NCBI GenBank assembly: GCA_947623845.1
Contig: CANQHM010000042.1
Span: 1-10,029 of the forward strand
DNA: 10,029 bases
Direction of reading: 5' to 3'
Origin: an uncultured Bacilli bacterium
GTDB lineage: Bacteria; Bacillota_I; Bacilli_A; RF39; UBA660
The position numbers and the translations under genes are program-made. Shown here piece by piece: positions 4,170 through 9,504 of this stretch. Position 1 is the first letter of the stretch, and each line of letters begins with the position of its first letter. The notes beneath the pieces were generated by a model. That model worked only from the letters and a program-made list of their open reading frames with translations, searched no databases and was not told the origin of the DNA.

Positions 4170-5258
4170 TTATTCCTCCTCTACTTTCCCGTTAACTATT
4201 TTATATAATCTACTATTATCGCGAATACTTTTTTTCACAAACATAACATTTGTTGTGGTAATAAATGTTTGAATCTCTTTATCAAGCATACTTAAGATAT
4301 TATTTATTTTCTTTTTATCTAACTCACTAAATAAGTCATCTAAAATTAATATTGGGTAATTTCCACTAATATCTTTAAATAACTCTACTAAAGCTAATTT
4401 ATACGCAATAATCGCATTCTTTTGCTGTCCTTGGCTTCCTAAATCTTTTAAATCTCCAAATGGCAGTAAAAAATTCATATCATCATGATGAATCCCCATA
4501 TTTGTTTTTCCTAAAAATAGGTCTCGTTCTAAATTCTTTTTATAAAGAGCTTGTAAACTTTCTTTTGATTCCCCATTATAACTTGATATGTATTTGATAT
4601 TAAGTCCTTCTATTCCTATTATTTCCTTATATATATTCCCTATTTTTTGATTAAGTGCTGTTATAAACTTATTACGAAATTCATATATTTTTAATCCATA
4701 TTCAATTAAACTATTCGTTAAAATATCTAAATAATCTAATGAACTATTACCATTTACGGCGACTGTCTTTAAATAAGCATTTCTTTGTTTCAATATTTTC
4801 TTATAACTTGCTAAATATTTTAAATAATTATTATTTAGTAAAGAAATATCGACATTTAAAAGTTTTCTTCTTATCTCTGGACTTTCTTTAATCATTTTTA
4901 AATCATCAGGACTAAAAACTACTACTTGAATTTTCGAAATATAATCACTTAATCTTTTATAAGTATTACCATCTACTAAGACTTTTTTTCCCTCTTCATT
5001 TAAAGTTATTTCATAATCGTGCATTACTCTTTCTCGTACTTTGGCTTCTATTTTTGTTTCTTTTTCGCCCTGTCTAATTAAATATTTATCATCTTTTGTT
5101 CTAAAGGATTTAGTTAAAGCTAAACAATATATTGCTTCGACAATATTACTCTTTCCTGCTCCATTATCTCCATAGATAATATTTAATTTGGAATCAAAGT
5201 CCATATCTAGTTGTTCATAATTACGAAAATTTAATAATTTTAAATGTTGAATTTCCAT
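4170..5258 (-). CDS. recF: DNA replication and repair protein RecF
   Basis: RecF is an SMC/ABC-like ATPase that binds gapped DNA and, with RecO and RecR, helps load RecA at stalled forks. At 362 residues it is close to the B. subtilis protein (about 370). Visible motifs are Walker A GDNGAGKS (30-37), the segment [12 protein letters not shown] typical of the family (51-62), the ABC signature LGSQGQQK (273-280), and Walker B ILILDD followed by LFSELD (303-314), the D-loop region. The ATG has an AGAGG ribosome site in front. The gene is 84 nt downstream of the comK-family gene and 2 nt from gyrB. The gap before it holds a weak promoter and a perfect 11-bp inverted repeat, so it may be driven by its own promoter or partly by read-through from comK. 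RecF also supports RecA during transformation in competent Bacillus, which makes the neighbour suggestive but not proof of a shared role. Confidence 0.98.
4175..4180 (-). promoter_or_regulatory. gyrB ribosome binding site inside the recF 3' end
   Basis: AGGAGG on the minus strand lies in the final Glu codons of recF, seven nucleotides before the gyrB ATG. It supports the chosen gyrB start and translational coupling between recF and gyrB. Confidence 0.85.
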
Positions 5259-5353: not shown

Positions 5354-5807
5354 CTTTTTTTTGTAATTTTTTTCTTCTTTCTTGCATTAAACATCCCAAC
5401 CTTGTCGCATTTAAAATTTGGCGATCAATAATATTGTAACTTTCATCTACTTTTAAGACCTTTCCATTCTTAAATCTTATGTACATATCATCATTTTCTT
5501 TATAGTAATTATCAATATTATTTAAACTAATCCATGCACATTCTGTTCTTCTATCACTTTTCGTTGGAAAAAATATTATGTTATTCACATCTTCTACAAT
5601 TATTGGAACTTTATATCTTGTTTGCAAGACCTTTTGTGCTCCTTTTTTTCTTCCTTTTAAGGAACTTCCATAATACGTACAGCTATCTTCCATTATTTTC
5701 GTTGCTGGTTCATTTACCATAAAACTTCGATCGTCTTCATACACCATTGTTCTCGTATTTTTTGGTTTTAATGCGAGTGTCTTTTCATTTATTTCATATT
5801 TACCCAT
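5343..5807 (-). CDS. comK: ComK-family competence transcription factor, short form
   Basis: ComK is the master activator of late competence genes in Bacillus, binding paired AT-boxes (AAAA-N5-TTTT) in DNA-uptake operons. This 154-residue protein shows the family core: DSCTYYGSSLKGRKKG (41-56, compare SCRFFGSSYAGRKAG in B. subtilis), KVPIIVE (66-72), IIFFPTKS (77-84), RRTECAWIS (86-94, compare RPQCGWIS), FKNGK (112-116) and SYN (123-125). The comparison is from memory, not an alignment. The protein is shorter than B. subtilis ComK (192 residues). It ends in a lysine/arginine tail and lacks the C-terminal FMLYPK segment that MecA uses to target ComK to ClpCP. The start ATG has a GGGGG ribosome site 8 nt upstream. 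It sits alone between the dnaN-unit terminator and recF, an unusual location. Family membership is fairly firm; whether it controls competence here is inference. Confidence 0.88.
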   Translation of the reverse strand: MGKYEINEKTLALKPKNTRTMVYEDDRSFMVNEPATKIMEDSCTYYGSSLKGRKKGAQKVLQTRYKVPIIVEDVNNIIFFPTKSDRRTECAWISLNNIDNYYKENDDMYIRFKNGKVLKVDESYNIIDRQILNATRLGCLMQERRKKLQKKVKK

Positions 5808-5841
5808 TTCTTATTCCCCCTAACTGAAATGAATTACTTCC

Positions 5842-5850
5842 ACTATACCA
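5842..5850 (-). promoter_or_regulatory. Extended -10 promoter of the comK-family gene
   Basis: TGGTATAGT on the minus strand is an extended -10 (TGN plus TATAGT, 5/6 to TATAAT). At the correct distance the -35 region reads AAATTT (5865-5870), which is not a -35. This is the layout of an activator-dependent promoter. The expected transcript start is about 28 nt before the ATG. The phased heptamers at 5860-5886 occupy the place where an activator would touch RNA polymerase. Confidence 0.6.
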
Positions 5851-5859
5851 CACTTCCTT

Positions 5860-5886
5860 TGTCGAAATTTGTCATATTTTGTCGAA
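5860..5886 (-). promoter_or_regulatory. Three 10-bp-phased heptamers resembling Spo0A boxes
   Basis: Read on the minus strand, TTCGACA (5880-5886), TATGACA (5870-5876) and TTCGACA (5860-5866) repeat with an exact 10-bp period, each followed by A/T. TTCGACA is the known Spo0A binding box (TGTCGAA on the other strand), and Spo0A binds tandem boxes one helical turn apart. The array covers the missing -35 of the comK promoter. Spo0A is known to bind the B. subtilis comK promoter at several sites. That a Spo0A-like response regulator acts here is inference; another factor recognising the same repeat is possible. Confidence 0.6.
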
Positions 5887-5900
5887 TTTTATCTCAAATT

Positions 5901-5927
5901 AAAAACAAGTCTTCTTTTGACCTGTTT
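5901..5927 (-). terminator. Rho-independent terminator of the dnaN-downstream unit
   Basis: On the minus strand AAACAGGTC (5919-5927) pairs with GACTTGTTT (5903-5911), giving 9 bp with one G-U pair around the loop AAAAGAA. The run of T begins in the arm and continues TTTTTAATTT. It begins 9 nt after the stop of the 222-codon gene and ends before the comK promoter. It therefore separates the dnaN unit from comK. There is no T run in the plus-strand reading. Confidence 0.75.
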
Positions 5928-5948
5928 ATAACTTCTTACTTATCCACA
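5923..5948. promoter_or_regulatory. DnaA box with oriC-like flank outside oriC
   Basis: A perfect plus-strand DnaA box TTATCCACA (5940-5948) overlaps the last codons of the 222-residue gene. Five nucleotides to its left lies TGTTTATAACTT (5923-5934). The same 12-mer with the same 5-nt gap to a DnaA box occurs in the dnaA-dnaN spacer (7850-7875). This looks like an oriC-type DnaA site between the dnaN unit and comK. Its left part overlaps the terminator stem, so both functions would share bases. Confidence 0.5.
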
Positions 5949-6604
5949 TGGGGAAGTACTACTTTTGGTCTTCCTAAAACTAATTTAGGACTTTCAAATA
6001 TTACTTCTTGATCAGAAATTCTTTTTCCAAATTTGGCATTCAACACATTATGCCATTCCATATCTTTTATGCCAAAATTATCTTTCGTTGTGATTACTTT
6101 TCCACAACACTTACACGTATAATATTGTAATACTTCTAAATCTTCTATTTGACCACGTTCATCTTTTTCCGTCTTAAACTCCGTTTTTAAAACATTTTCA
6201 CTTGTATCAATTTGATGTCCATATCTTATACATAACTTTTCTAATAAAGTTTTAATTTCATCTTTTTTCCATAACCATAAACTTAACTTTTGTTGATTTT
6301 CTATTAATTTATTGTGTAACTCATCTTCTTCTAAATTTTGATAATTATCTTTTAACTCTTGCTTGATTTTCCCAATAATAAGGTGATAAGCCACAATTTG
6401 TTTATTACATATTTCTAATTTACTTTGCAATTCTCTAGTTTTTACTTTAATTCCTAACATAAGATGAATTTTTGCTTCTTCAATCTTTTCGTCTCTTTGC
6501 AACTCTAAAGCTTTTATTTGCTTTTGTATATTTGCGGCTTCTTCTATTTCTTGTAACCCTAAATCATATACCTCATTATCAATAACGCTTAAATCTTCTA
6601 ACAT
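5936..6604 (-). CDS. Uncharacterised coiled-coil protein with a CxxC knuckle, downstream of dnaN
   Basis: I do not recognise this 222-residue family. Residues about 15-130 are rich in Glu, Lys, Leu and Gln with heptad-like spacing, consistent with a long helical coiled coil. A linker (132-156) leads to YYTCKCCGKV, where Cys164 and Cys167 form a CxxCG knuckle like half of a zinc ribbon. Cys166 and His185 are possible further ligands. No second CxxC, membrane segment or signal peptide is visible, so it should be cytosolic. The ATG lies 11 nt after the dnaN stop, and the ribosome site AGGAG overlaps that TAG stop, so it is translated with the sliding clamp. A terminator follows directly. The position suggests a role around replication, but this is context only. 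The last codons (HVDK) are formed by a DnaA box on the other strand. Confidence 0.85.
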   Translation of the reverse strand: MLEDLSVIDNEVYDLGLQEIEEAANIQKQIKALELQRDEKIEEAKIHLMLGIKVKTRELQSKLEICNKQIVAYHLIIGKIKQELKDNYQNLEEDELHNKLIENQQKLSLWLWKKDEIKTLLEKLCIRYGHQIDTSENVLKTEFKTEKDERGQIEDLEVLQYYTCKCCGKVITTKDNFGIKDMEWHNVLNAKFGKRISDQEVIFESPKLVLGRPKVVLPHVDK

Positions 6605-9324: not shown

Positions 9325-9504
9325 TTTTCCACAGCTTTATTAACAATTTATTTGTTATAATAAAACACTTTTTTTAACTTATCAACATTATTAACATTTT
9401 TTTTACACACTTGTTTATAATTTTATCCACAATCCATGTTAGTAATGTTAATAACTTATCTAAATCACGTATTTATAGTGTGTATAACTCTTTACATATC
9501 CACA
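9325..9504. other. oriC, upstream part: DnaA-box cluster
   Basis: Within the 340-bp spacer between dnaA and the divergent gene the plus strand has TTTTCCACA (9325-9333), TTATCAACA (9379-9387), TTTTACACA (9401-9409), a perfect TTATCCACA (9423-9431) and ATATCCACA (9496-9504). The minus strand has TTATACACA (9479-9487) and the degenerate TTATAAACA (9412-9420). This corresponds to the incA/incB clusters upstream of dnaA in B. subtilis. A weaker match lies at 9511-9519 on the minus strand. The rest of the spacer holds promoters and no gene. Confidence 0.75.
9357..9385 (-). promoter_or_regulatory. Main candidate dnaA promoter
   Basis: TTGATA (9380-9385) and TATTAT (9357-9362), each 5/6 to consensus, are spaced by the optimal 17 bp. 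The leader would be about 110 nt and would include the DnaA box at 9325-9333. A second DnaA-like box, TTATCAACA (9379-9387), overlaps the -35 hexamer, which would let DnaA repress its own gene. Regulation is inferred from this overlap. Confidence 0.55.

Follow-up and report, generated by a model that had tools for sequence, protein, structure and literature searches.

At the sporulation operons spoIIG and spoIIE of Bacillus subtilis, 0A boxes lie over the -35 region of sigma-A promoters in which a TTGACA-like hexamer stands about 21-22 bp from the -10 element, and at spoIIG Spo0A contacts sigma. Tandem 0A boxes are spaced 10 bp apart, as seen in the Spo0A-DNA structure. According to the available text of Mirouze et al., phosphorylated Spo0A (Spo0A~P) also binds directly to 0A-type boxes at comK of B. 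subtilis and times the possible onset of competence (PMC3297582, Mirouze et al., 2012), which confirms, for the phosphorylated form, the binding that an earlier note on the present DNA had mentioned. As described in the same part of that source, the sites A1-A3 are imperfect and spread, with A1-A3 centres 54 bases apart, and act largely against the repressor Rok; two further sites, R1 and R2, repress, R1 lying over an existing -35 (PMC3297582). In C. difficile, the Spo0A boxes have the core TGTCGAA, the contacts to G2, C4 and G5 being adopted from the structure of the B. subtilis protein (PMC3485338, available part). The spo0A gene of B. subtilis is itself under its own 0A boxes, which are mostly repressive in one model, going by the accessible portion of PMC12090719.

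Spo0A binding at comK is already known, then, from B. subtilis (2012). We found no report, among the matches listed in open-licence PMC, of a strict box triplet, of its family-wide spread or of a joint drift of the Spo0A helix and the comK operator. For a comK-Spo0A link in the RF39-like group that concerns us here, the matches listed from open-licence PMC included no paper title on comK, and a study of RF39 sporulation and cell wall mentions comK 0 times in the part of its text available (PMC10868615).

The comK promoter of the window

The window, the whole stretch of 10,029 nucleotides analyzed here, comes from an uncultured Bacilli bacterium and carries on its minus strand, in this order, dnaA, dnaN, a 222-aa ORF, comK, recF, gyrB and gyrA; gene names besides comK were read from translations. 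The ComK protein scores far above the Pfam gathering threshold (137.5 vs 22.3 bits, PF06338) and gave no match in NCBIfam, and the gene starts at 5807 (Table 1). No similarity of the window to plasmid sequence was found.

Table 1. Features of the comK locus in the window
Feature	Position	Strand	Basis or remark
comK, competence transcription factor, 154 aa	5343..5807	-	PF06338 ComK, 4e-40, 137.5 bits
Likely comK RBS, AGGGGGA	5815..5821	-	sequence
Extended -10, TG-G-TATAGT (TGGTATAGT)	5842..5850	-	sequence; belongs to comK promoter
Box 3, proximal, TTCGACA	5860..5866	-	exact match; corresponds to the family's 18-bp position
Box 2, middle, TATGACA	5870..5876	-	sequence; same in L001 and L002; corresponds to the family's 28-bp position
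Box 1, distal 0A-type, TTCGACA	5880..5886	-	exact match; corresponds to the family's position at about 38 bp
Terminator-like hairpin directly preceding the array	5903..5927	-	1 found vs 0.1 expected
222-aa ORF between dnaN and comK	5936..6604	-	without family match over a cut-off

Read 5' to 3' on the minus strand, the array consists of TTCGACA, AAA, TATGACA, AAT, TTCGACA and 12 nt, followed by TATAGT (5847-5842) after TGG. The two TTCGACA copies and the TATGACA, 10 bp apart, proved on re-reading to have the coordinates and letters first assigned to them. The three heptamers (5860-5886) thus proceed in 10-bp steps just after the terminator-like hairpin, the region of which (5888-5935) folds with -13.2 kcal/mol (z -4.66, equalled by 0/200 shuffles). 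TTCGACA is the 0A core TGTCGAA read on the other strand; two boxes match this core exactly and the middle one with 2 mismatches, and the spacing is the 10 bp expected of tandem 0A boxes. From the start of the proximal box to the -10 hexamer there are 19 bp. A search of 5790-5990 for sigma-70-type promoters whose -35 stands 16-18 bp from the -10 found none, so that the description of an extended -10 without a usable -35 stands, and ATGACA within the middle box, 22 bp from the -10, resembles a displaced -35. The window promoter has the layout of the spoIIG/spoIIE type: no -35 at 17 bp, a TTGACA-like ATGACA at 22 bp and 0A-type boxes lying over it.

A degenerate triplet allowing up to 3 mismatches has 2 matches in the window, the exact array itself and an overlapping match with 3 mismatches, versus 0.01 expected, and 0/200 shuffled windows held 2 matches. 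TTCGACA alone occurs 5 times versus 0.88 expected, a number reached by 1 of 200 shuffles. Outside the array, the copies at 2794 and 7081 had been correctly located by the earlier note; a third, at 5136-5142 in recF, had been overlooked. DnaA boxes were rejected as the source of the array, none of the listed TTATCCACA-type sites overlapping 5860-5886. The window has more of these DnaA-box-like sites than expected (15 versus 3.73 with at most 1 mismatch), with exact ones at 5940-5948 and 9423-9431 and several further ones at 9325-9504, upstream of dnaA.

Conservation of the array in relatives

A ComK-alignment scan of a one-genome-per-species collection returned 217 relatives, and the best 80 of the 217 loci were kept; the MAGs are labelled Bacilli, Tenericutes, Erysipelotrichaceae, Mollicutes, Firmicutes or uncultured bacterium. 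Additional comK loci came from other genomes in the family of G002, which with G001 is nearest to the window; we take this family to belong to the RF39 group of Bacilli or to lie close to it. At least 90 nt of upstream sequence was available for 168 of 171 loci, and these were clustered to 125 non-redundant regions, window included. Sequences resembling dnaN (upstream) and recF (downstream) flank comK in 169 of the 177 loci with enough flank, some genomes being counted twice. Among the loci compared, the 222-aa ORF is found only in the window, L001, L002 and L111 (L111 being G002 again), and comK keeps its array even where this ORF parts it from dnaN.

The nearest comK loci, L001 and L002, have an identical array, including the TATGACA middle box, and G094, the third genome of the nearest genus, has TTCGACA-N3-TTTGATA-N3-TTCGACA. 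Across the 125 regions, the sense strand carries 87 copies of TTCGACA, distributed over 68 regions, versus 4 copies on the antisense strand and 0.97 in shuffled sequence. Exact pairs within 45 nt are found at 10 bp (6 pairs) and 20 bp (15 pairs) and at no other spacing; with up to 1 mismatch there are 39 pairs at 10 bp, 43 at 20 bp and at most 2 at any other spacing. When the -10 was picked blind to the boxes, matches of at least 5/7 to the box were located 18, 28 and 38 bp upstream of it in 45, 53 and 41 of the 125 regions, respectively, compared with 0-8 regions at all other distances from 8 to 59 bp, and this profile showed no box beyond 38 bp. Because matches pile up at these three distances only, the operator can be described as three boxes at fixed geometry. 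Heptamers and 10-bp period alike are conserved, then, both in the aligned close relatives and family-wide.

With a good array defined by at least 14/21 box matches, 80 of the 125 promoters qualify. The TG of the extended -10 is present in 58 of these 80, and 31 have a TTGACA-like hexamer (5-6 of 6) at 20-22 bp; a -35 with at least 4/6 matches to TTGACA at 16-18 bp occurs in none (0/80), versus 21/200 shuffled. Among the remaining 45 promoters, none of which has a good array, some show a single good box or an ordinary -35; L003 and L004, for instance, have TTGACA 16 bp from the -10.

Genome-wide, an exact 10-bp TTCGACA pair occurs in 35 of 98 family genomes (reversed control, 0/98). In six of the 98 (G053, G064, G093, G109, G123 and G140) such a pair precedes the Spo0A_C-coding part of spo0A by 503-558 bp on the same strand, a distance that places it just before the spo0A gene. 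Perfect 10-bp pairs are abundant in two genomes, at 14 places in G135 and 17 in G140 (overlaps counted apart). G135 also has three near-identical triplets (L225, L226 and L227), which precede promoters resembling one another; two lie close to the end of a contig, and together they perhaps represent a repeated gene family. A perfect triplet in G096 (L224:716-1527) precedes a 247-aa ORF whose translation reads like a restriction endonuclease. TTCGACA pairs 26 or 30 bp apart recur in G131, G004, G054, G062, G134 and others, several with similar intervening letters, and possibly mark a second type of Spo0A-dependent promoter.

Spo0A and its recognition helix

Spo0A_C (PF08769) was detected in 43 of the 50 comK-bearing genomes searched, which were the genomes of 50 out of the 80 kept loci, in 91/98 of a smaller family set and in 354/386 family genomes. 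SpoIVA is kept in 83/98 and ComEC is present in 86/98. Within the nearest genus, one of three genomes (G094) has Spo0A_C; its Spo0A passes the TIGR02875 (spore_0_A) cut-off (277.8 vs 200 bits), combines a PF00072 receiver with PF08769, and has a recognition-helix core, SRVERAIRHAIEV, identical to that of the B. subtilis structure 1lq1. The nearest relatives G001 and G002 both have the array, and neither draft MAG gave a Spo0A_C match; the tpiA-gpmI neighbourhood of spo0A was not found in 535 kb (about half) of G002, a genome that has SpoIVA. Spo0A is either truly lost there or lies in an assembly gap. The search for a Spo0A-type effector domain that the earlier note had called for was successful in most relatives, though not in the closest two; on the preferred reading given below, Spo0A would be present in the organism of the window.

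For 131 genomes we had data on both the helix and the boxes, and compared them at two helix positions, R214 and R217, numbered on our assumption that the 1lq1 chain begins at 148. A near-consensus ..GACA box is absent in 9/9 genomes changed at R214/R217 versus 20/122 unchanged ones (Fisher 4e-7, with kinship ignored and the two defining positions chosen after inspection of the data). Kinship-corrected pairing left 5 supported pairs (in the median, 4 agreeing and 0 disagreeing; p from 0.0625 to 0.5, median 0.125), a result in the right direction that has too few pairs and is not significant alone. The helices of G087 and G070 (fragments or second copies) were set to none by hand, and those of G382 and G088 were entered by hand from alignments.

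Genomes with an E-K helix (G127, G382, G321 and G364) have TCGACC or TCGACT, so that position 7 of the box is C or T in 4/4; where an E-R helix accompanies a clear array, this position is A in 29/32, the exceptions being G049, G072 and G126. TTCGAGA is found in G258 (E-S helix), ATCGCCA and ATCGCCG in G102 (E-H helix), and TTCTACA and ATCTACG in G055 (R217 changed), although a TTCTACA-type box also accompanies the usual helix in L139. All these altered boxes retain the 10-bp phase, and a -10-like hexamer follows 18 bp downstream in G258, G102 and G055 and is weak in the E-K genomes. To list altered arrays, and not for statistics, we used a blind self-similarity fit of three boxes in which the distance to the -10 was limited to 18 or 19 bp; it recovered the register poorly, with a box of at least 6/7 in 42% of 109 usual-helix genomes. 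At least two separate origins have to be assumed for the E-K change on a ComK tree of 155 rows whose bootstrap values had not settled. Where Spo0A has diverged with R214 and R217 intact, ..GACA is kept in G332, G260, G139, G164, G213, G301, G081, G045, G050, G222 and G100, yet G190, with the same two residues intact, lacks ..GACA boxes. As read from these sequences, the way in which boxes and recognition helix change together makes Spo0A, and not a protein resembling it, the probable binder.

Several genomes encode a shortened protein: the open frame spans 143-220 aa in G139, G127, G102, G104, G081, G321, G382, G243 and G164. Domain scans of G139, G127, G104, G102 and G081, as well as G088, found Spo0A_C without a receiver match. 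The short protein of G139 reaches 114 bits against the 200 of TIGR02875 and 108.7 bits for PF08769, with no PF00072 match at 0.01; it resembles a Spo0A effector, not full Spo0A. All nine short frames (L203, L204, L205, L206, L207, L343, L350, L352 and L353, of which L203-L207 were scanned without a receiver match) follow a gene whose translation reads like tpiA, as does the full-length spo0A of G094, G019 and G035, and because of this shared position they look like decayed spo0A orthologues. The short proteins of G088, G301, G213 and G364 are encoded elsewhere, not after the tpiA-like gene. A changed helix is combined with a retained receiver in G055 (domain match) and seemingly in G258 (260 aa, from reading). 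In the 98-genome set, to which the SpoIVA search applies, SpoIVA matches are absent in G055, G081, G088, G102, G104, G127 and G139. They are absent in 15/98 overall, including five genomes with a full-scoring Spo0A_C (G075, G082, G110, G111 and G137), so a part of the missing SpoIVA matches may reflect gaps.

One reading of these genes is about as likely as not. Several lineages of the family that seem to have lost sporulation may keep a decayed, receiver-less spo0A, often after tpiA, because comK still needs its DNA-binding domain. Protein and operator would then drift together, giving new box letters in 10-bp phase (TCGACC/T, TTCGAGA, ATCGCCA, perhaps TTCTACA and AAGGAGA), and the master regulator of sporulation would survive as a competence regulator without phosphorylation control.

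Regulation of comK and comparison with known systems

The triplet is probably a Spo0A operator, made of three tandem 0A boxes on one helix face, at which Spo0A binds and activates comK. Spo0A, full-length in most family genomes, would bind all three boxes, which lie where an extended -10 promoter of the sigma-A type lacks its -35. From there Spo0A would switch comK on via a contact with sigma as at spoIIG, and DNA uptake would thereby be tied to starvation or the sporulation decision. What we computed is the array, its fixed geometry and conservation, the presence of Spo0A in almost every relative, and the altered boxes that go with altered helices; the Spo0A reading first raised by the earlier note is strengthened by the family-wide Spo0A_C domain (354/386), by the conserved phased boxes and by the helix-box co-variation. 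The 20 of 122 unchanged-helix genomes without a near-consensus box count against it, as do the two nearest MAGs with their lack of a Spo0A match. By analogy with spoIIG and spoIIE, an array that stands where the -35 would be, keeps its distance to the -10 and turns all its boxes to the same side of the helix most likely forms an activating operator.

It is unlikely that Spo0A, acting at this same operator, mainly represses comK by covering the promoter from about -50 to -24. In favour of repression, the comK promoter of B. subtilis has a repressing box, R1, over its -35, as the available text of that study describes (PMC3297582); the boxes here, too, overlie the -35 and spacer region, and those of B. 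subtilis spo0A were modelled as mostly repressive, in the accessible part of PMC12090719. A blocker, however, does not need the fixed distance between box and -10, and array promoters that lack a -35 at 16-18 bp (0/80 with at least 4/6) look too weak to need one. Moreover, G083 (L194), which has no boxes and no matches for Spo0A and SpoIVA, has TTTACA 16 bp from its -10, which fits a lost activator. We examined the promoters of 7 of the 22 Spo0A-less genomes for a -35, and the six besides G083 show no consistent pattern of a regained one, with 5/6 matches in G204 and G168 and 2-4 of 6 in the other four.

We give very little credence to the proposal that the array serves a different regulator of tandem direct repeats, either another response regulator or ComK itself, and resembles 0A boxes by coincidence. 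Direct repeats separated by roughly one or two helical turns are indeed bound by other response regulators, and G001 and G002 have the array with no Spo0A detected. Yet the heptamer is the exact reverse complement of the 0A box TGTCGAA and occurs upstream of spo0A as well, the box letters shift with the Spo0A helix, and the ComK box, AAAA-N5-TTTT, is unlike the heptamer. Chance or sequence composition, for which the single TTCGACA copies elsewhere in the window might speak, has a negligible probability and is ruled out as the origin of the triplet by the 0/200 shuffles with two triplet matches and by the strand-specific 10- and 20-bp spacing in relatives, so that three copies in phase are, as had been argued, hard to put down to chance.

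Taken together, our findings suggest that the coupling of Spo0A to competence is not a Bacillus peculiarity, since a large family of uncultured Bacilli with small genomes retains it; to judge by their record labels, many of its members come from animal guts. The compact operator, with three boxes and a fixed promoter geometry, lends itself to testing Spo0A activation, and the series of helix and box changes provides natural material on the co-evolution of a regulator and its site once the main job, sporulation, is gone.

Among known systems, the C. difficile boxes share the core TGTCGAA with those of the window, and the available part of that study describes no phased comK triplet (PMC3485338). 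As at B. subtilis spo0A with its own boxes, a box pair lies just before spo0A in 6/98 family genomes. The comK promoter of B. subtilis likewise has 0A-type boxes at comK, binding being predicted for those here; in the present promoter, by contrast, three boxes in 10-bp phase stand in for the -35 and keep a constant distance from an extended -10. The locus resembles spoIIG and spoIIE in having boxes over the -35 region and a displaced TTGACA-like hexamer (22 bp in the window), but differs from them in its three strict tandem boxes and in its target, which is comK and not a sporulation operon.
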